64,000 nucleotides of DNA from positions 14,323,726 through 14,387,725 of the forward strand of contig OZ024876.1 of NCBI GenBank assembly GCA_964017185.1, given 5' to 3'. Below, in pieces: positions 3,001 to 64,000 of the stretch. Source of the DNA: Rugalucina vietnamica (Eukaryota; Mollusca; Bivalvia; Lucinida; Lucinidae). Both the position numbers and the translations under genes were made by a program. The notes beneath the pieces were generated by a model. That model ran no database searches. It saw nothing but the letters and a program-made list of their open reading frames with translations, and was not told where the DNA came from. Each line of letters starts with the position of its first letter. Positions within the stretch are counted from its first letter, which is position 1.

Positions 3001-4720
3001 ATCATCTGTTTGAAAATGACACACCTTTAAATGATGTCTGTTAAACTTATAACCTAATGAAAATTGCGACGTTAGAGAAAGAGATAGTGCGACGAGCGGC
3101 AATCCAGTTCTGTGTACAGACCGTTATGACCTCAAATGATTCATTCAAGCATCTGAAAAGCACAAACATATACAGTGGTATTTCGAGGAGCCTTGTTTTA
3201 AATGGCATGGTCGATTTAGAGAATGGTGGTCAGAAAGTACACAGCATGGACGGAAACCATTTATGAATGTCCGTAACATACTTTCCACAGATGAAATCCC
3301 ATCTTCAGTGCAAACCTTCTCAGGGCAAAGAGAAGTTCATGTAAGCGATTCAACAGGTCGTTACATAGTCTGTGGTTCAGTGACATTTTTCAAAAGTTGG
3401 TACAAACATCCCTTGTGTATCGCACACAACGGAGCGTACCTCTATAAAGAGTAAACGGGAAGTACATGTAGTACATGAAGTTGACGCATAACAGCAGACA
3501 TCTGCATGACTTGCAGTTTTGTATTGTGTACTGAGATTTTATTCTTAGGTGTATTTTTCTGAAATTTTGTATGCATACCCAGAAGATGTGTACGCAATAT
3601 ACTTGTTAATTGGAAGCCTGTGAATTGAATAGTTTTTATACAGCAAGCACAGTCCACAATTTACTGGGCCACCCTTCGTATATATCAAAATTCTAGCCCG
3701 AAAATAACTTTTCTTCCATCATACAAACATTTAATTAATTATCCGAGGTGAGGTTTTGCACTATAGGCCATCACACACCCCTATATGAGCCGCATTATGA
3801 GAAAACAAGAATTTTACCTTTTCGAAAACAAAGGCGCAGATCAGCTGTGCAGTAAGGCAGATCAGCTGTCAAGGATAATACAATCTCTCCTCTTGTTTAA
3901 TCCAAGATTTCAAACTACTAGCCTTCTTCTGAGATTGTACAGACCAGTTTATGTAGGACCTGGTCAGAAACCCGAAGACCAACTCATAATATGGAGCAGT
4001 CATTACACTGACCTGACTGATATCACTGCACCAAGCTGCCTTCTCAATGTGCGTCGACGCCACCAGAATGATCGTCAACTGTGGTCCACTCTTGGAGTCG
4101 ACTATAATTCTCAGGTCAAGCCCATTGTAGTCAAGACGATCTCGCTCTGCCTGGTAGGGTAACAATGTGCCTTGCGACGAAGATCCGAAACCACTGGTCG
4201 CAGATTCAAACGAGGTGTCTGAAATTGACATTAAATATCTAATTGAATATCTATGTATCTAATTTAATTCAATTTAAATTAGATATATTCACCTCACCAT
4301 ATAGGCCACTTTTTGTGATGGAACCTTTGAAATGAGGCAATTCAAACAGCTCTTGAAAGTTATTGTAAAATGGGGAGTTATTAATTATTAGGGCATTGTT
4401 TGTTTGTTTTGTGGTCAAATATCCTAGTAAACAATTTTTCAGTTATGTTGGGATGAAGCTCCCTGGGTATTAACCAGTATAATGGGGAGTTAATGTCTTG
4501 CTCAAGGACAAAGGGAACTAACCCTCAACCTCTCAATGCTCTATCCACTAGGGCTATTATGCTCTATTGAGCAAATAAGCAAATGCATCACTAAAATACA
4601 GAGTAGCTTGAATGTAGAAAACAAGTAATTTTTAATTGGAAAAAGTCTAGTAAAAATCAATGACTATATGGAAGACACGTTTCATGCCAACTAGATAATC
4701 CTTCTCAAAAAATATAGGAT

Positions 4721-4767
<47 letters not shown>

Positions 4768-7700
4768 CTATAAAACATTATTACAATAATAATATACTTA
4801 CTCTCTTCATCAAAGTAGATTTCAGAGCTTGGGTCTTCGATGAGAGTACAGTCAATCAGAGACAGCTTACCATTTTGCTGAAATAGAGGAAAAAATTGTA
4901 TCATATGACGTCGCTGTTTTCCAGTGGATAACGTCATGTAATAAAAGTGTTATGACCACACGTGTGTTAACACTTTTGCGGGAATATCTAACATCACCGA
5001 CGATGTCCATAACAACAATGTTAATTTTCATTGGAAAATATAAGAAAAATATCAATTTTTTTCTATGAAATAAGTAAAAATAAGAAAACTATCATTTTTT
5101 CTATGAAATTTCAATGTGTTGCCACTGTAAACCCCAGTTTTACTATATATTTCAATTTTTACAGCTGAAAAAAATCATGGGCAAGTTCTCGTAATGAAAT
5201 GACCTAAACAAAATGCTTCTGAATGCCAAGGACTATACCAGAGTCTGCCCCACATCTCTGTAATATTTACATTTTTACTGCAATTGTGTTAGATGAAAGT
5301 ATCTTTCTTTATGTTCTTCACTGCCCAATGAAAAACACTAAGTCATGTGATCTATAGACCACGCCTATGGGTGGATTGACTTCAAAACCAGCCAGTGACG
5401 TTGTTTGTTTACCCTTGCTGGCGTGACATCCGTCACGTATCGCCATGAAGTTAAGCCCGGAAATTCGACGTTTTGGCTGTTCCAAAATTATGATAAGTTG
5501 GATTTAATGTCAAATAACATAAAAATGAGCGATAATATGTGCAATTAAAAAGCTGATACTTGATCAATAATACAAAATGTAAATACCAGAGGACCAATGG
5601 TCCTGTAAACGCTCACCTGAGATCAGCTGCATATACCAATAAACATGTTTGAATATTATGGTATTTAACTCCAGTGCAGGGGCAGATAAACCCTTGGGCC
5701 ATTTTCTTTTTTCAGAATCTTCAATATTCTGTCCATTTGCCAATTTCCTGTTGGCTTTTTCCTTCAAATGACATTTTAACAGTTTTCCCAATTCAGATGC
5801 ACAGGCAACCCATGTTGACCTTGCCATAAACTTGGTCAAGGTCATCACAGGGTCATGATTTATATATACATTGGAGTACTTTAGCCATCGATGCCTCACG
5901 CCAAGTTTCCTTGAAATCAGTCTATTGGTTTCAGAGAAGATGATTTTTGATGGGTTTTACCATATATGGGCATGGCGGCCATCTTGGTCATGTGACCTAG
6001 ATTATTTATATATACATTGATTCCCCCATTCTATAGATGCTTCACTTAAAATTTGGCTTTGTTTGGCCAAGCGGTTTCAGAGGAGAAGACGTTTGAATAT
6101 TATGGAAATATACATGTATATTGCCCCGGGGTGGGGGCACATGAGCCCCTGGGGTCCAATTTTTTTCAGAATCATTAATATCCAGTCCTACTGCCCATTT
6201 CCTGCAAGACTTTCACTTTAAATGACATTTTAAAAGTTTTCCCCATTCAAATGCATTGGTGACCTATGTTGACCTTCCCGTAAAATAGGTCAAGGTCATC
6301 ACAGGGTCATGATTTATACACACATTGTAGTGCTTGAGCCATCGATGCTTCGTGCCAAGTTTCGTTGAAATCGGTCAACCGGTTCTGGAGAAGAAGATTT
6401 TTGAACGGTTTTTACCATATATGGGCATGGCGGCCATCTTGGTCATGTGACCTGGATTTTTTATATACATATTTGTTACCCCTTCCTATTGATGCTTCAC
6501 ATAAAATTTGGCTTTGATTGGCCAAGCGGTTTCAGAGAAGAAGATGTTTGAATATTATGGAGATATACATGTATATTGCCCCGGGGTGGGGGCGGATGAG
6601 CCCCTGGTGCCCAATTTTTTTCAGAATCATTAATATTCAGTCCTACTGCTCATTTTCTGCAAGATTTTTCCTTTAAATGACAATTTAACAATTTTTCCCA
6701 TTCAAATGCATTCGCGACCTATGTTGACCTTGCCGTAAAATAGGTCAAGGTCATCATAGGGTCATGATTTATATACACATTGTAGTGCTTGAGCCATTAA
6801 TGCTTCATGCCAAGTTTGGTTGAAATCGGTCCAGTGGTTCCGGAGAAGAAGATTTTTGAAGGGTTTTTACCATATATGGACATGGCGGCCATCTTGGTCA
6901 TGTGACCTGGATTATTTATATACACATTGGTTCCCCCTTCCCGTAGATGCTTCATGTAAAATTTGGCTTTGATTGGCCAAGCGGTTTCAGAGGAGAAGAT
7001 CTTTGAAAATGGTGGACGACGGACGACGGACGGACGGACGGACGGACGACGGACGGACGCCGGAGCATGGGTATACTATAAGCTCACCTTGTGAGCCTGA
7101 CGGCTCAGGTGAGCTAATAAGTACTAAAATTCAGATTTTAGCTTTCACTGGATGATGAAATAATTAGTTGTTTTAATGTCTCCGAGAATGTGTACCCACT
7201 AACTCATGATATTCATATTAGCCTTTGCATGAGAAAACCAACAATTTGAGTTTCTGACCAGGTCTGACACAAATCAGCCTGTACACCTACAGAAATTGGC
7301 TGGAAGCTTGAAATTTTGAATTTAAGAAGTAGAGGGGTTGTACTATCTGTGTAGCGAAAACAAAGATGCTGATCAGCTGTGCAGTTACTGCATAGCTGAT
7401 CTGTGCCTTTGTTTTCACCTACTCATATTGTTGGTTTTCTTATGCGGCGGCTTGTATAACATTGCTGCGGACATTTTCTTTTCTGTATACTGTGTCTATG
7501 TTGTGCCATGCATTTAACGAGACAGTGTCCCACTGACCCAGTGATCAAGCAACATACGTGATTATTGTCACACAGACAGATTAGCATAATAAGTGGTAGA
7601 AGTGTCCTATATGGAACACTATTATAAGAGCCGCAATGTGAAAAAAACGGTCTTTAGGATTTCCAACCTGGTCTAACACAAACCGGCCTGTGCAGCTACA

Positions 7701-33100: not shown

Positions 33101-36100
33101 ATGTAACAGAACATGAAGCATGCTAATTTAGGGAGATAAGTTTCCAAAGCAACATCTTAGCTAAAGATGATCAGTCTTAGCCAGTTTGTTGAATAAAATT
33201 GGTGCCCAACTTCAAACACTCTAAAATTTAAAATTTGTTTGCCAGTGTAGGTGGGTGGGGTATTATAAACATTAAATCAATATAAAACTTGAAATTGTTA
33301 ATTGAAATTGCTTTTTAAAACATGCATAAAACACACTAACCTTTATATATCCATTTCATGCAAAATGTTGTTAACTTTTTCTTCAAATTATAGAAAATTT
33401 AAGCTTATTTAACTTGGAGCACATTTCTTCAGTCCTTAGATTTAAACAGCATGTGTATTTACTGTGTGTTAATCTCAAGTTAACCTCCAAAACTATGATG
33501 CAACAGGAAGTTATTACTCAGCACTTTTTCCTCTGTTTTATGGCAATATTTTCAATGGTAGTTTTTCTCCCAAATTCTTGCTAAACTTTTGTTCAAATTA
33601 TTACAATATTTTTACTCATTTTATTGCAATATATTATTATTGTTGTAATATTGCTATAAAATCAAATTTTAGCAAGAATCTTGTTGACATATTGCAATAG
33701 TATAGCTGTAGTATTGTAGTATTTTTCGTACGGGAAACACCAACGCCGATACCGTGGTGACTGCAATAGCTCTTCCTGTACTTTCTTACAGGCAAGCTAA
33801 AAACTGATATCTTCTGCTTGAACTATTTGCTCAGATGCTGCTCGAAGAAAAGTCCTTGACAACTGTGCTCTTTTCGTGTTATTTGAGGTTATGCTATGAA
33901 GTGTGTTTTTGGTATTTTCTGTGACGTAATGTGATGTTGCTGCATGAACAGGCGTCACACTTTACAGGGTTGCCACTCATTTTTCATTTCAAAATTCCCT
34001 GACTTTTCCATGACATTTCCCTGACTTTTTACAGTTTTCCAGATCATTTTATCGGCCTCTCGGCGCCATTTTTCAGCTCTTTGAAGCCATCTCACCTTCT
34101 ATAAAAGCATAGGTTGCAAGGCTCTTCTCTACCTCTCCCACTTTTAGATTTTTTCCTATGAAGGGAATTTATTTTCACTATTATTATAGTTATCCCCATA
34201 AAAGAATAAAGTATTTAAAGAATTGCTTCAATGGCTTTTCTTCGTTTTCACCCCCCATGCTTCACTTTCTTATGGTAATGTTTGATTTAAAACAGAAAAA
34301 GGTAAGTGAATTTTGGCAGGGGTCTGGGGGCCGCCTAGGCCCCCAGAACCTCTTGGGTTAATAATGCAATCTCCTCTGATGTTGGCCTCTCCTGAGGTCA
34401 TTTATCATCATTTTTTAGCATGCAGCCAAAATGAATTGAGGGATAATTGAAGAAAACAAGTAGGATACAGAAAAGGTAAGTTCACTTTGAAGCTCATGCA
34501 ATGTAAAAAGTAAAAATCAAATACTTCTCAAACAATATGTTTAAAGACTTTAATCAAGAAATTCTGAGAAACTGAATGCCATGTAACTTTAGGGGTAAAA
34601 AAGAGTTGACTTTTTTCAAAATCTATTAAGACATTGATACATTGCCAAAGACAATCACTTTTGAGAAAATTTTGAAATTCCCTGACTTTTTTCCCTGACC
34701 GTGGCAACCCTGTTTTAGTGTGTGACGTATGCAAAATTACAAGGTCTCTTGCTGCAGATATTTTCATTTTCTGTGTTTGGTTGAAAACTTGCCATAGTCT
34801 TAAATGATTAAAAATGTCAAATTTAAAGAAAATTTCAACATTTGAGCAACGCCGACGCTAACACCAACGCCGATACCGTGGTGACTGCAATAGCTCTTCC
34901 TGTACTTTCTTACAGGCAAGCTAAAAACTGATATCTTCTGCTTGAACTATTTGCTCAGATGCTGCTCGAAGAAAAGTCCTTGACAACTGTGCTCTTTTCG
35001 TGTTATTTGAGGTTATGCTATGAAGTGTGTTTTTGGTTTTTTCTGTGACGTAATGTGAAGTTGCTGCGTGAACAGGCGTCACACTTAGTGTGTGACGTAT
35101 GCAAAATTACAATGTCTCTTGAGGCAGATATTTTCATTTTCTGTGTTTGGTTGAAAACTTGCCATAGTCTTAAATGACGAAAAATGTCAAATTTGTACTA
35201 AATGATGTTCAAAAAGAAGTGGTGTAAGAGAATTGACTCTCACTCCGCCGCCGCCGCCGCAAAGCAATGTCGCATGTAAATGCTGCATCATCACTATTTA
35301 CAACTCCCTGACCTTAAGAGCTTAGATCATATGAAGACAAGACTTCAAATTAAAGTCTGAGCCAAAAAGACTGGAATTTTAAGCCCAGGCTCAAACTCAC
35401 ATTACCTGGCCCCGAGGTTATAAAACTTTTTTTCATGCTTAACTCTGCTGAGCATGAAATTTCAACTGCACTTTAATGACAAAATAGACCAAATAAATTC
35501 AGGTTAAGGTCACCAAAAGTGTGTAATTTATCCTGCTGACAAATGTTAAAATGCCAACAATTGTTGGCCTTTTAACATGAGAAGGATAAATTTTAGTCTC
35601 AGCTGAGCTGAGCATGAAAAAAGTTTTATAACCTAAGGCCTGGCTTATATTTACACAACAAGTTTAACCACTATGCCACGCCAAAGAGCAAAATCACTGA
35701 CCTATTCAGGAAAATTGAGTTGACATCTTCATGTGTGATCGGCGGTTTCTTTGAACTAGCTGCCATACGTAGTGGCCGTAGAAAGCATGTGACAAGAGCA
35801 GATAACTGTTGGTTATACTCTTCCTCGCACTCGACCATACTGAACACAATACTATTACGTTTTCTCATACTCTCTGCATGTGGAGATCGGATGTAGAGAT
35901 CAACAATTTGTTTCCATCTTCGTCGACACAGCCAGCCACGGAAGAAACTTTGAACCTACATAACAAATGAGCCTCCTCGTGGGAAAACCAACAATGTGGT
36001 TTCCGAACAGGTCCGACACAAACCGGCCTGTACAAGCACAGAAAAGAGCTAGAAGCTTGAAATTTCGGATTTAAGTAGAAGAGGAATTGTACTATCCGAG

Positions 36101-48100: not shown

Positions 48101-51100
48101 AGAGGATCTGACTATAGCCCTGCTTCAGAGCTTTTTTCCAGGGTGAGAAAAACTATAACAGGTAACAATCCCAAGCTAGATCTTGTTAATGTTGATGCAC
48201 GTAAAAAGATTGGTAAGATTCTGTCAATTCGTTCTCAAGATATTGAACGGAAACGAAATTCTGACGTCAATCAAGGGCCGTAACTCCCTCAAATTTAGCG
48301 AAAAATGATGGGCAACAATCCCAAGCTAGATCTTGTCAATGTTGATGTGCATACAAAATTTGGTCAGATTCTGTCAATTCATTCTCTAGATATTGAGCGG
48401 AATCAAAATTCTGACGTCAATCAAGGGCCGTAAATCTGTCAAAATTTTGCGAAAAATGACTGGCAACAATCCCAAGCTAGATATTGTCAATGTTGATGTG
48501 CATACAAAATTTGGTTAGATTCTGTCGATCTGGGAACTCATTTATGGCCACTGAGTGTACATGGATGAGACAACTCCAGTCCGGCAGTTGTCATTATCCC
48601 ACTGCTGCCACCAAATGCAACGTGAGCTGAACCAAGCAACAGCTAAACCCCGTCGGTAGAAAAGCATGCTCATCTACTTAGGGTGGTTTGCTGTGCTATT
48701 TATGCAGTATAAGTGGACACCCCACTTCCCCCGCAAAATCATAGGGAAAGTGGGGTAAAGTGCGTCAGTGAGACAAGAGACTGTACACAGTATGACAAAG
48801 GTGCTTATCAGCAAATAGTGCAGCTTTTTCCTTTGCATTTTGAAAATAACAATTAAGTACATTTTCTTGAGGTGCTTCAATTAAGATTTGTCATGCAGTA
48901 GATATTAAGAGAAAATTTGAAATAGAAAAAATGGGAGTCATTATAAAAGCTTTCCTTAAACCAAGCAAGAAAACAAATGAGCCGCCGCATGAGAAAACCA
49001 ACAATCTGCATAGGCGAAAACAAAGCCGCAGATCAGCTGTGCAGTAACTGCACAGCTGATCAGCGGCTTTGTTTTCGTTGCACGGATAGTACAATCCCTC
49101 TTCTTCTTAAATCCAAAATTTCAAGCATCTAGCCTTTTCATGAAGATGTACGGCCTGGTTTGTGTCGAACCTGTTCGGAAACCCAAATTGTTTTCTCATG
49201 CACAGGCTCAAATGATTGCGCACCCAGCCAAAAATCAGACTGGCATCTGTCCTATACAAATCTTCATCACCCAAAATCTCAATTTTACAAAATGAAAATT
49301 TACCTTTTTAATTTTCTTTATTTCATCTGTTTCTTCCTCCATGTGGTGGTTCGATGTTCTGTCTTTCTTAAACTTCTGAAGCTACATTACAAAAACATGC
49401 CTAAATACATTGAGCAGCATCATGACACAATTTTGGATTAAGGTAGAAATGAAATTGTAGTGAAAACAAAGGCACTGATCAGCTGTGCAGTTACTACACA
49501 GCTGATCTGCGCCCTTGTTTTTGCATAGGCAAAAATCTGTTTTTTTTTTCTAAACAGTGAAATTTAAAGCTGCAAAACTGACAAATCTTAGTACCATGTA
49601 CAATTCTTTTTTTTTTTCTCATATTTCAAGACTGTTATAACAAGTACCAACTATTTATGTTTTGGAGCAAACTTCGTATATAATTTTGCTCTACCTAAAT
49701 CTGAAATTCTCAAGCCTCTTTTGAGCCTTTTATCCATCTCCTATTGTTGTACAGTCAATTATATTATGTTAGATCCAGCCAAAACAAGGTGATTCTAATG
49801 TGTATACTCACTATCTATGTTTTGAAAGAAAAATTAAAAATAATGGTCTAGTATATGAGCCACGTCATGAGAATACCGGATTTTTGCCTATGCGAAAACA
49901 AAGGCGTAGATCAGCTTGGCAGTAATTGCAAAGCTGATCAGTGTCTTTGTTTTCGCTATAGGGATAGTACAATTCCTTTCCTTTTTTTAAATCCGAAATT
50001 TCAAGCTTCTATCCATCCTCTGTAGCTGCGCAGGCTGGTTTGTGTCGGACATGGTCGGAAACCCCAAAGACCGGTTTTCTCATGTCACGGCTCATATTCC
50101 CTTTACCATCCCAGTTTTACTGATAAACATACCTCAGCCTTGAGTTTTTTAACCTCCGCGACAAGTTCCTCCGTCTGTTGAACATAGTGCCACTTGGCCT
50201 GTCTCTCACTCTCCAGAATCTGGATAATGTGGAGATGTTTTTGTTCAAGTTCTTCTTTCTGTTCCACAACTTTACTATAGCTGCAAATTAGACAATAATA
50301 CGAATAACAGCTGCAAATTATACAATAATACGACTAATAGCTGGAAATTAGACAATAATATGACTAATACCTGGAAATTAGACAATAATACAACTAACAC
50401 CTGGAAATTAGACAATAATACGACTAACAGCTGGAAATTAGACAATAATATAATAGCTAGAAATTAGACAATAATATGACTAATACCTGGAAATTAGACA
50501 ATAATATAACTAATAGCTGGAAATTAGACAATAATTTAACTAATAGCTGGAAATTAGATAATAATACGATTAACAGCTGGAAATTAGACAATAATACAAC
50601 TGCAGTGTAATAGCTAGAAATAAGATAATAATACGACTAACAGCTGGAATTAGACAATAATATGACCAATACACAACCTCGCTTGACCGGACACAAATCC
50701 ATGCTAACCTACATGTACAATAACCAGGCCAAACGGGTTATACAACTTTTTACATTTGGTAACCTTGACATCTACTAGTAACATAAACATCGCGTTTAAT
50801 TACAATGTGCGCACCTCTGATCAATATTTTGTAACAGATGATTTACACATTTTTCCTGTTTCAGGTACTACCAATCCATCAGTTGATTCACCAACTACAC
50901 AGAACTTGTACATTATGTTGATAAAGTGTAGATCTATATTTTTAAATAAGAGCTGTCGCAGGACAGCATGCTCAACTGCTTCTGACCTTTGTCAAACATA
51001 GGGCCAAACTCGACCTGTAACCCAAAGCATTATGCTCATACATCCTTTTGCCTTGATGTTATACAGAACAAAATCACTGAACCATGACAGTTAACTATAA

Positions 51101-54100
51101 CTTATAACTACTGAAGGTTTAAACGTCTCAATCATATTGTACATGAAGTATGTTAATACACCAACTGAGTGCCGAGATACAAGGCAAAATCATTGAACCG
51201 TGAAATAAGCTCACACTGACCTATAAGTACTTTAGGGTCAAAGGTCTTATCATATTTACTCATAATAATAAAGACGTATGAAAATATACCAAATGAGTGT
51301 CAAGTTATAAGGCAAAGTCACTGAAGCATGAAATTAGGTCACAGTGACCCAGGAATACTTTAGGGTCAAAGGTCTTGTCATACGCAAACATAATGTGAAA
51401 GAAATATGTTCATATACCAAAAGAAAACCGAGATAAAAGGCAAAATCACTGAACCATGTAATCAGGTCACAATGACCTAGGACTACTTTAGGGTCAAAGG
51501 TCTTGTCATACACAAACATAGTGTGAAAAATTATGTTCATAAACCAATTGAGTGCAAAGATATAAGGCAAAATCACTGAACCATGAAATTAGGTCACAGT
51601 GACCTATAAGTATATTGTGGTCAAAGGTCTGTTCATACTCACTCATATAATCTGAAGGAAGCATGAAAATATAATAACTGAGTGTCAAGATGTAAGGCAA
51701 AATCACTGAAGCATGAAATTAGGTCACACTGACCTATAAGTATATTGGGGTCAAAGGTCTAATCAAACTAACTCATAATCTGGATGAAGTACGAAAATAT
51801 ACTAATTGAGTGTCAAGAAATAAGGTAAAATCACTGAACCACGAAATTAGGTCACAGTGACCTATAAGTTTATTGGGGTCAAAGCTCTGGTCATACTCAC
51901 TCATAATCTGAAAGAAGAATGAAAATATACTAATTGAGTGTCAAGATATAAGGCAAAATCACTGGACCATGGAAAGTAGGTCAACCAACAGTAACCGTCA
52001 TGGCACTAAGTTAGTGTCACTAAGTTAATAGATGAATGACCAAGCATCTTCCTAAGTTGTTTCTATTTAGAAATAAAAGAAAAATATTTTCAGAGAGTTC
52101 TAGATTTTGACCCCTAGCCCCACCCCCTTGACTCGGACCCAGAGGTCGGATGTCATGGAACCTAAAGTGTATGAAGTATGAATGCTTTATGATAAGTTGT
52201 TGTCAAGATATGGACTCTTTGTTAAAGTTACACAGTAGTACATCCATTTTTTACACTGTTCTAGTTTTTAACCTCTAGCCCCACCCCCAGGCATGGATCG
52301 AGGAATCTGATGCTATGAAATGAAACTCAACCCTACAGGGTACCTATGGTCCAAGTACAAAAGCTCTCAGATAAAAGGTTTTCAATATATAGACTTCTAG
52401 AATACTATATCACAGAAAAGCCATTATTAATAATGTTCTAGATTTTAACCTCTAGCCCCACCCCCTGGCATGAACCTGGGGATCCGATGCAATGGAATGA
52501 AAGCCAACCCTCTAAGGTACCTATGGTCCAAGTTTGAACTCTCTTTGGTAAGTAGTTGCCAAGATCTGGACTGCTAGAAAACTTTGACGCAGTACAGACA
52601 ATTTTTTATAGTGTTCTAGATATAAACCCCCAGCCCCACCCCCGGGATGGACCCAGGGGTCCGATAACATGTAATGAAAGCCAACCCTCCAAGGTACCTA
52701 TGGTCCAAGTTTGAACCCTCTATCATAAGTAGTTGCCAAGCTGTGCACTTCTAGAAAACTTTGACGCAGTGTGCGGGAACGGGAACGGGAACTAGAACGG
52801 GAATGCGGTCGACCAAGGTGACTACAATAGCTCTTTGCACTTTGTGCAGTCGAGCTAAAAAAAACACACAAAAAAAATTCTTCATGAAAAAAAAAAAAAA
52901 AAAAAAATGAAGACTAATAGCTGCAAATTAGACAATAATACGATTAACAGCTGCAAAAGACAATGATATGACTAGCAGCTGGAAATTAGACAATAATGCA
53001 ACTAGTAGCTGGAAATTAGATAATATTATGACTAATAGCTGGATATTATAGGAATGAATTTTATTTTTGTTGATTTTTTTGTAAACTCAGGCGAATCACT
53101 CACAAACTAAATAAAGCTTGAAGGGCATTAAAGTTTGTGAGTGATTCGCCTGAATTTACACATCGATAAAATCAACAAAAATAATAATTCATTCCTTATA
53201 ATTCCAACTCTTGTCTCATTACCCTGCATTTGTCTACATTGATTTATTTTTTTATAGCCAGCAGAAGGAAACTAGAGCAACTAGAGCAAAACGGATCTTC
53301 TTGAGGCAGCCATCTTGAAAATTTCCAAAGCATAGAAATAGAAATTTTTCAAGTAATAGAAGCTATAACTGGCTTGCAATAGGCAGGCTGTAAAAGCGGG
53401 GGCTTTACAACATCTCCGCTTCATTCAAAATTGTTCTTTTGGGAGACAATATCGCCGTCTGGACCAATAGAAAGACATATCGATTTTGAACTGGAGCTCG
53501 GAACATTGGAAAATCAAACGTCAAATTTCAACACACAACAAGAAGATTAAAACACTTACCGTACGATGTTCTGTTAATAGAAAAAGCGCCCATGTTAAAA
53601 AAAATTCCAAAACGTGTTCATCCATTGTTTTTATAACGTTTAGATTTGGTGATGTCAATGTTTCATTGAAGAAACGTCACATAATCATGTAACGTCGCGC
53701 CGTTTTTAAGGTGAAAACAGAGTATTCTTACGCATTGCTTTTATCGAAGTCAAAAAGTCTTCCAAAAAAACGATCAGATTGTAGGAAGTTAGTAAAGTTG
53801 GAATTATTAGACAATAATATGACTAATAGCTGGAAATTAGACAATAATATGAATAATTGTTGGAAATTAGACAATAATATGACTAACAGCTGGAAATTAG
53901 ACAATAGTATGACTAACAGCTGGAAATTAGACAATAATATGACTAATAGCTGGAAATTAGACAATAATACGACTTATAGCTGGAAATTAGACAATAATAT
54001 AACTCAGTAGTAAAAGCCGGCTTTGAAGATATAATAATTTTTTACATGTGTCTGAATAGTACAAACGAACTGGCGGGGTTACAACCTTCGATACCGATCC

Positions 54101-61423: not shown

Positions 61424-62672
61424 GTATTGTACATTCATTTTTGTTTGATTGTATATATGCTTTTGATTGTTTCACATGTAATTACTGGTTAAATCACTTC
61501 TAAATAGATTTGTTAAATTTTAAACAAAGCTTGTTGCTGGCTAACCAACTTGTTGGTTTCCTTAATCTTCTAGTTACGCCTGGCACGTAACAATCTGATG
61601 CAAAAAATATCGTTATTGTGCGGTGAGCCCTTACTGGCGGAAACAACTCGTTCTGTGAAGCAGGGCCTTTGATCCGAACACGCCTATATTCAATGGAGAA
61701 AATCCGAACGCATCTTATCTACGATGGCCTGCATGGATCATAAAATTTCAAAATCCACAGATTTTTTATTTTAATTTTTCTTTGCAAAAGCTTTCGTCAC
61801 ACAAAAAGTGATTAAAATGAATAAAATAAGGATCAATGATGACTTGTATAGTAAAAAACATTATCTTAAAGTGCTTTTTAAAGAGATGCAGTTTGTTGCC
61901 TTTTTCATCTTCCATATGGTAAAAACCCGGATGCAGGTCAAAAATGATCTGAGATGTCTTCGACAAAAAAAATATCGACACAAACGTCCCTATTCGATGC
62001 TATGGGTACGGAGGAAGCAACCAGGACATTTATGGATTCAAAATCGGCAGCAAATTATATATAGATACTGAATGACAAAAGATAAGGTTACTTGTTTGAA
62101 AGAGTAATTTTCGACACTTTTTAAAATCTTGTGCATAAAGGTACACAATTTCAGTATTTTAAATCAAAAGTTATGAATATCTTTAGGCGCTAGATATAAC
62201 AATAATGTGGTATAGATATCATTATCCTGTCATTTCAGATGTAAGTAATAGACATCTGTAAAGACAAACTTGTTTTCAAAATATTAAACAATGCAATTTT
62301 GCTATACGTTCTTAACATTTTTGTTCTTTCGGAAAATGTCCGTGTTTAATGTCAGGTCTTCAGTCATTTTTTGTTTGTAACAGATCATTTCAACATACTC
62401 TTCCTTGACAAGGAGTCAATTCTGTTCGGTCGTGACGTGTGTGTGCAGCATTAAGAAACACGACGTTTTGTGAAAATAATGTCTCATAATCCTATCCAAC
62501 AATTTTAAAATCTGATGAGTCGAGACCAAACTGTCATTTGTTCTTTGCTACAACATGATTCCTTTCTAAATCAATGAATTTTGAAGTCGCATTATGCTTT
62601 GGAAATATTTTGCAGGACATTTAACTTAAGCACTTTAAAACAAGAATGTGCTAAATTTTTATCGAGATGTAT
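61424..62672. other. Stretch between the candidate leader and the satellite
   Basis: An 87-codon plus frame at 61808-62071 (rich in Lys/Arg, with YRHKRPYSMLWVRRKQPGHL) is not a family I can name. If the leader is real, this would lie in its intron. Confidence 0.4.
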
Positions 62673-64000
62673 AAATGTGCATGCTAGTTATTGGAAAGAA
62701 TGTGCATGTTCACTAGAAACAAATGTGCATGCTAGTTATTGGAAAGAATGTGCATGTTCTCTAGAAATAAATGTGCATGCTAGTTATTGGAAAGAATGTG
62801 CATATTCACTAGAAATAAATGTGCATGCTAGTTATTGGAGAGAATGTGCATGTTCTCTAGAAATAAATGTGCATGCTAGTTATTGGAGAGAATGTGCATG
62901 TTCTCTAGAAATAAATGTGCATGGTAGTTATTGGAGAGAATGTACATGTTCTATAGAAATAAATGTCCATGCTAGTCATTGGAGAGAATGTAAATGCTCA
63001 CTAGAAATAAATTTGCATGCTAGTTATTGGAAAGAATGTGCATGCTCACTAGAAATAAATGTGCATGCTAGTTATTGGAGAGAATGTGCATGCTCACTAG
63101 AAATAAATGAGCATGCTAGTCATTGGAAAGAATGTACATGTTCACTAGAAAGAAATGTGCATGCTAGTTATTGGAAAGAATGTGCATGTTCACTAGAAAT
63201 AAATATGCATGCTAGTTATTGGAAAGAATGTGCATTTTCACTAGAAATAAATGTGCATGCTAGTTATTGGAGAATATGTGCATGTTCTCTAGAAATAAAT
63301 GTGCATGGTAGTTATTGGAAAGAATGTGCATGCTCATTAGAAATAAATGTGCACGCTAATTATTGGAAAGAATGTGCATGCTCACTAGAAATAAATGTGC
63401 ATGCTAGTTATTGGAGAAAATGTGCATGCTGGTTATTGGAAAGAATGTGTATGCTCACTCGAAATAAATGTGCATACTAGTTATTGGAAAGAATGTGCAG
63501 GTTCACTAGAAATAAATGTGCATGCTAGTTATTGGAAAGAATGTGTATGCTCACTAGAAATAAATGTGCATACTAGTTATTGGAAAGAATGTGCATGTTC
63601 TCTAGAAATAAATGTGCATGCTAGTTATTGGAGAAAATGTGCATGTTCTCTAGAAGTAAATGTGCATGCTAGTTATTGGAAAGAATATGCATGTTCTCTA
63701 GAAATAAATGTGCATGCTAGTTATTGGAAAGAATGTGTATGCTCACTAGAAATAAATGTGCATACTAGTTATTGGAGAGAATGTGCATGCTCACTAGAAA
63801 TAAATGTGCATGCTAGTTATTGGAAAGAATGTGCAGGTTCACTTGAAATAAATGTGCATGCTAGTTATTTGAGAGAATGTGCATGTTCACTAGAAATAAA
63901 TGTGCATGCTAGTTATTGGAGAGAATGTGCATGCTCACTAGAAATAAATGTGCATGCTAGTTATTGGAAAGAATGTGCATGCTCACTAGAAATAAATGTG
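62673..64000. repeat. 48-bp satellite array, continues past the right edge
   Basis: Tandem units of 48 bp (starts 62673, 62721, 62769...) with consensus parts AAATGTGCATGCTAGTTATT and GGAAAGAATGTGCATG-CTCACTAGAAAT. About 27 units are in view. The motif AATGTGCATGCT occurs twice per unit. Because 48 is a multiple of 3, a frame stays open from 62581 to 63480 (repeat NVHASYWKECACSLEI). It is lost where a shortened unit near 63420 shifts the phase, so the long ORF is a by-product of the repeat. Old, diverged units lie at 60085-60345. Confidence 0.95.

Follow-up and report, generated by a model that had tools for sequence, protein, structure and literature searches.

A 30-bp minisatellite that appears to span the 3' splice site of a coiled-coil exon in a RASGRF-type gene of the bivalve Rugalucina vietnamica

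Introduction

Minisatellites known as 'mirages' have been published from lancelet genes, namely Adh3, the globin genes BflGb6 and BflGb9, PGBD5 and troponin C (PMC3087553, PMC3902484). The unit lengths given in these papers are 10-72 bp for Adh3, 150-160 bp for BflGb6, 157 bp for BflGb9, and 60 and 108 bp for PGBD5, and the BflGb6 array is described with either 6 or 3 copies (PMC3087553, PMC3902484). According to one of these accounts, mirages do not disturb regular splicing (PMC3902484), and the lancelet globin paper mentions that the copies could act as cryptic sites and give rise to alternative transcripts. Related boundary repeats have been published from human genes (PMC5954066, PMC2812944). 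Intron 18 of human ABCA7 carries a variable number tandem repeat (VNTR) with a 25-bp unit that touches an exon and contains its splice site, and a copy of this site can be used (PMC5954066). In human duplicated genes, variable tandem repeats with units of ~30 bp on average can sit at the exon-intron boundary, and these are said to create novel introns (PMC2812944). Finally, tandem duplication has been put forward as a source of intron gain in Drosophila (PMC2891723) and, in one case, in potato (PMC4974935).

A search of the open-licence literature for a mollusc mirage, or for a bivalve minisatellite with splice sites, found none. Here, we describe a 30-bp tandem repeat that precedes the coiled-coil exon in a RASGRF-type gene of the bivalve Rugalucina vietnamica. 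Our reading, to which we give a probability of roughly 70%, is that this array is a passive, boundary-spanning mirage minisatellite, whereby the preceding pleckstrin homology (PH) exon is spliced to position 50280 and the remaining copies sit in the intron as tolerated decoys.

Results

The analysed window is a stretch of 64,000 nucleotides, and all positions given here are counted from its first letter. The gene was identified with tblastn, using as a probe a working version of the human RASGRF1 protein. With this probe, matches on the minus strand of the window followed one another in the order first PH domain (its end), coiled coil, IQ/DH, second PH and beginning of RasGEF-N, and RasGEF domain matches were found on the same strand, 13-19 kb past the window start. 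Thus, the gene shows the domain order expected of a RASGRF (PH, coiled coil, IQ, DH, PH, RasGEF). No paralogue for comparison was found, since all five genome matches to an IQ/DH query were exons of this same gene.

The coiled-coil exon (50133-50280, minus strand, 148 nt) matches the human RASGRF1 probe over 51 residues, 39% of them identical (tblastn, E 7e-5), and its edges were set by reading frame and GT/AG, so that the acceptor is a placement based on protein homology, frame and the GT/AG rule. The upstream exon, which encodes the last part of the first PH domain (54785-54891, minus strand), ends with GCA AG/GTTGGT, and its phase fits an exon beginning at 50280. We place the exon start at this position because the AG at the end of the PH exon, together with the C that is the first base of the coiled-coil exon, completes in the correct frame the serine codon of an A-S-Y motif, of which the human probe has A and S-Y at the same places. 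When solved structures were searched for an independent homologue of this exon, no more than three weak matches came up, all to the PH tail in intersectins, the best with an E value of 0.64. Several other sequence features surround these exons. At the exon start (50274-50280, GCAGCTATAG) there is a second AG 6 nt in, use of which would remove two residues in frame, and the donor of the PH exon, AAG/GTTGGTATAC (54779-54786), is followed 4 nt downstream by another GT that would shift the frame if used. A dispersed element of roughly 250 bp (49850-50110) is situated some 25-40 nt beyond the coiled-coil exon's donor, and at least 24 further stretches of the window are related to it at 70-88% identity. 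Likewise, the window contains at least 24 additional matches to the bases immediately upstream of the IQ/DH exon (35956-36060), and 8 of the 24 listed alignments start 6-9 nt from this exon, so a dispersed repeat may supply its acceptor context.

Upstream of the coiled-coil exon, Tandem Repeats Finder (TRF) detects a 30-bp repeat in three blocks on the minus strand, at 50277-50671 (block 1, 13.1 copies), 52912-53048 (block 2, 4.6 copies) and 53806-54004 (block 3, 6.6 copies), giving about 24 copies in total, close to the 25 estimated in a preliminary description of this DNA. The whole array lies within one intron, between the PH and coiled-coil exons. In the direction of the gene, the consensus unit reads CTATTAGTCGTATTATTGTCTAATTTCCAG, and the mean pairwise identity among the units of exactly 30 nt is 0.867. 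The period had been described as a multiple of 3, which holds for the 18 of 21 complete units that measure exactly 30 nt, but not for the other three, which measure 37, 26 and 28 nt. When the 22 edges of the 11 exons in the window, several of which are approximate alignment ends, were compared with 28 merged tandem arrays, only the acceptor edge of the coiled-coil exon touched an array, and the next-nearest array was 30 nt away from an exon edge. At 30 nt from the exon at ~4797-4877, on its donor side, there is a perfect (ATC) microsatellite of 15 copies (4722-4767). The last part of the window (62671-64000) is occupied by a satellite-like array with a 48-bp unit in about 28 copies.

The real acceptor at 50280 reads TCTAATTTGCAG/C and is itself the end of a repeat unit, as had been noticed before, for it lies in the exon-proximal copy of the array (50281-50310, minus strand), in which the inner TTAG of the unit is TTAT. 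To judge the other copies, we scored AGs with a matrix built from nine other acceptors of the gene. This is a thin basis, and the exon at 4013-4132, whose acceptor is not settled, was excluded from it. With this nine-acceptor matrix the real acceptor reaches 8.9, within the top 1.4% of the 3,549 AGs on the minus strand, against 8.2 for the 50310 copy. The 22 AGs at the ends of the other units score between 3.1 and 8.9, and 19 of them reach at least the weakest of the nine gene acceptors, which span 3.9-14.1 when scored in-sample. In this comparison the acceptor of the IQ/DH exon, at 3.9, is the lowest of ten. The proposal that the array forms a ladder of potential 3' splice sites is thus supported by this small matrix. 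Translation gave the consequences that had been anticipated for the first two copies, since with a start at 50310 the exon stays open and gains ten codons, and with a start at 50340 a TAG follows after two codons. In fact, all 20 block-1 AGs beyond 50310 (50333 to 50643) run into a stop, leaving 50310 as the sole open copy; this check covers block 1, and the AGs of blocks 2 and 3 were scored only.

Each copy had further been described as having a branch-like CTAAT about 37 nt upstream of the next AG. The motif is indeed present in 16 of 18 full units, but in 14 of these 18 another AG stands between it and the CAG that follows. Because of this inner AG, the AG-free stretch is 21 nt in 15 of 22 copies, versus 28 nt before the real AG. 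We considered whether the loss of the inner AG beside the real acceptor reflects selection and discarded the idea, as 4 of the 18 full units have lost this AG. Three copies, at 50370, 50400 and 50486, read CAG/GT, in which an acceptor is directly joined to a donor-like GT, resembling the ratchet points of recursive splicing, and this is probably a single C-to-G change that spread.

These scores bear on an alternative in which the array tunes splicing, with some transcripts using 50310, adding ten codons before the coiled coil, or farther copies, leading to a premature stop and decay, so that the copy number sets the output of RASGRF. The range of the copy scores, and an open copy at 50310 that nearly equals the real site, argue for it, as does human ABCA7, where a repeated donor allows one VNTR unit to be retained and an effect of VNTR length on splicing has been reported (PMC5954066). 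The last 19 nt of the unit also vary less than the first 11 (13/342 versus 20/162 cells, two CpG columns left out, p 7e-4), and with distinct variants counted the difference has a p of 0.08. However, the copies are not independent, and therefore this conservation signal, and with it the case for selection on the acceptor part of the unit, is weak. The stops beyond 50310 and the reported absence of interference with splicing in lancelet mirages speak against tuning as well. We consider it unlikely, and slightly less probable still its extended form, in which the array is a hypermutable acceptor ladder, the proximal copy provides an in-frame isoform with ten more residues, the remaining copies divert transcripts to decay, and the length of the array would serve as a heritable dial for how much RASGRF is made. 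The passive mirage is favoured over tuning because lancelet mirages are reported to be harmless to splicing, with ABCA7 as the example that such repeats can alter it.

At the exon edge, the array had been thought to begin at the first base of the exon. It does meet the real acceptor, but it does not stop there, since about 7 nt of similarity continue inside the exon. These first 7 nt, CTATAGT (50274-50280, minus strand), form the exonic part of the duplicated segment and match the unit, CTATTAGT, with one base missing; aligned as CTAT-AGT, the similarity is 4 nt exact and 7 nt with the gap. Outside the array, equally good matches to the first 8 nt of the unit are found at 47 of the 120,414 positions in the window, and among the 6,676 positions that follow an AG there are 2. 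In view of this rarity, the homology of the repeat unit appears to span the splice junction. The exon bases shared with the unit encode the tyrosine of A-S-Y, which is also found in the human probe, and for this reason these codon bases probably predate the array. At the opposite edge, in block 3, unit homology begins at AGTTATATTATTG (AGT), after CTACTG, and AGTTATATTATTGTC at this edge probably represents the intron as it originally was.

The same junction weighs on a second alternative, that an ordinary intronic minisatellite spread up to the exon and absorbed the acceptor, so that the exon match arose by chance. The exon match is short, and tandem arrays are plentiful in the window (28 merged), but a match crossing the junction is rare (2 of 6,676), and an array overrunning a used acceptor must supply a working one in register. 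Taken together with the fact that no other exon edge touches an array, the rare junction match led us to reject chance abutment as the main account, and we regard it as improbable overall.

When the genome (1.09 Gb) was searched with a 23-base piece of the unit, allowing up to 3 mismatches, 28 matches were found, 20 of which lie at the RASGRF locus. The 8 matches elsewhere all have 3 mismatches, and a control with the piece read backwards gives 5. A 420-base query gave three matches in the genome, and these are the three blocks. Thus, the 30-bp repeat appears to be private to the RASGRF locus, and as the genome search ignores very common words, the absence of the unit elsewhere is strongly supported but not absolute.

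The three blocks are one array divided by dispersed repeats. Between blocks 1 and 2 there is a composite insertion (50672-52911). It opens with a truncated fragment of a dispersed repeat (50672-50942), followed by another repeat element (about 50943-52861) that contains internal tandem repeats of 128 and 177 bp and is called dispersed on the basis of 40 scored out of 6367 candidates, and an A-rich stretch closes the gap. The first fragment has 21 other matches, 8 of which begin at its first base, and among four genomic copies of this repeat the mutual homology extends past that start in 4 of the 6 pairs compared. Since other copies stay homologous beyond it, we take 50672 to be the edge of a truncated copy. 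The composite insertion is flanked on the plus strand by GACCAATA (50664-50671) and GACTAATA (52912-52919), which, read from the sequence, are probably an 8-bp target-site duplication, 7 of the 8 positions being identical. Blocks 2 and 3 are separated by a dispersed element with a palindromic arm (53044-53807), which has many genomic copies, with 39 other near full-length matches among 40 scored of 1112 candidates.

The presence of dispersed repeats between the blocks might suggest that the unit arrived with a mobile element, but these elements are multi-copy and interrupt the unit, which the genome search places at the RASGRF locus only, and we have rejected this very improbable origin. An assembly artefact is equally improbable, for although tandem copy number is generally known to be prone to misassembly, the copies are not identical to one another (0.867 on average) and different insertions part the blocks, so that the number could change but the structure hardly.

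Discussion

The suggestion that the array grew from the acceptor itself is well supported, in that the unit is seemingly private to the locus, includes the acceptor and carries the first bases of the exon. Its birth as a passive mirage can be pictured as follows. About 25 nt of the intron end together with the opening 4 nt of the exon, CTAT, would have been duplicated in tandem, the joint falling where the AGT of the intron meets the AGT of the exon, with the addition of one T, which gives a unit of 29 + 1 = 30 nt. The extra base is a T in 17 of 18 full units, and it creates the TAG in the reading frame of the exon. Slippage or unequal exchange would then have raised the unit to about two dozen copies, and later insertions of repeat elements would have cut the array into three blocks. 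The spliceosome would join the PH exon to 50280, and the remaining copies would stay inside the intron, mostly passive. The joining step, the order of events, faithful splicing and the pre-array state are what we infer; the array edges agree with the joining without proving it. The birth of this repeat unit is readable from both edges of the array, and the locus offers a natural test of how the spliceosome chooses one AG among two dozen similar ones.

Of the systems described before, the human CTNS VNTR was considered as a parallel and set aside, as it is described as a repeat in intron 7 without a link to a splice site. The Drosophila and potato cases resemble the RASGRF array in that tandem duplication makes extra splice signals, as far as those reports go, but here no new intron position is evident, and an existing intron was enlarged. 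The repeats of human duplicated genes were compared among paralogues and with transcripts in the published account, whereas the RASGRF array is one locus in an old intron, read from sequence. The ABCA7 VNTR, as reported, is on the donor side, and its length variation has been measured and tied to splicing; the RASGRF array is known from a single assembly, and its unit contains the acceptor of the exon and not the donor.

The closest likeness is to the lancelet mirages as these are described, which are likewise tandem copies of an intron-exon boundary, many of them with AG/GT signals, located beside the real boundary. The RASGRF unit appears to span its boundary with about 25 nt of intron and the short exonic CTAT, the array adjoins the gene's own boundary at exon 50133-50280, as placed by homology and frame, and most copies carry splice signals within the range of the nine gene acceptors. 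BflGb6 comes particularly near, since there too the repeated segment joins the 3' end of an intron to the start of an exon. Compared with the published lancelet examples, the RASGRF array differs in having about 24 copies of a 30-bp unit with only 4-7 exonic nt, in being split by dispersed repeats and in coming from a mollusc. It is a clear new example of the mirage structure already described, and not a new kind.
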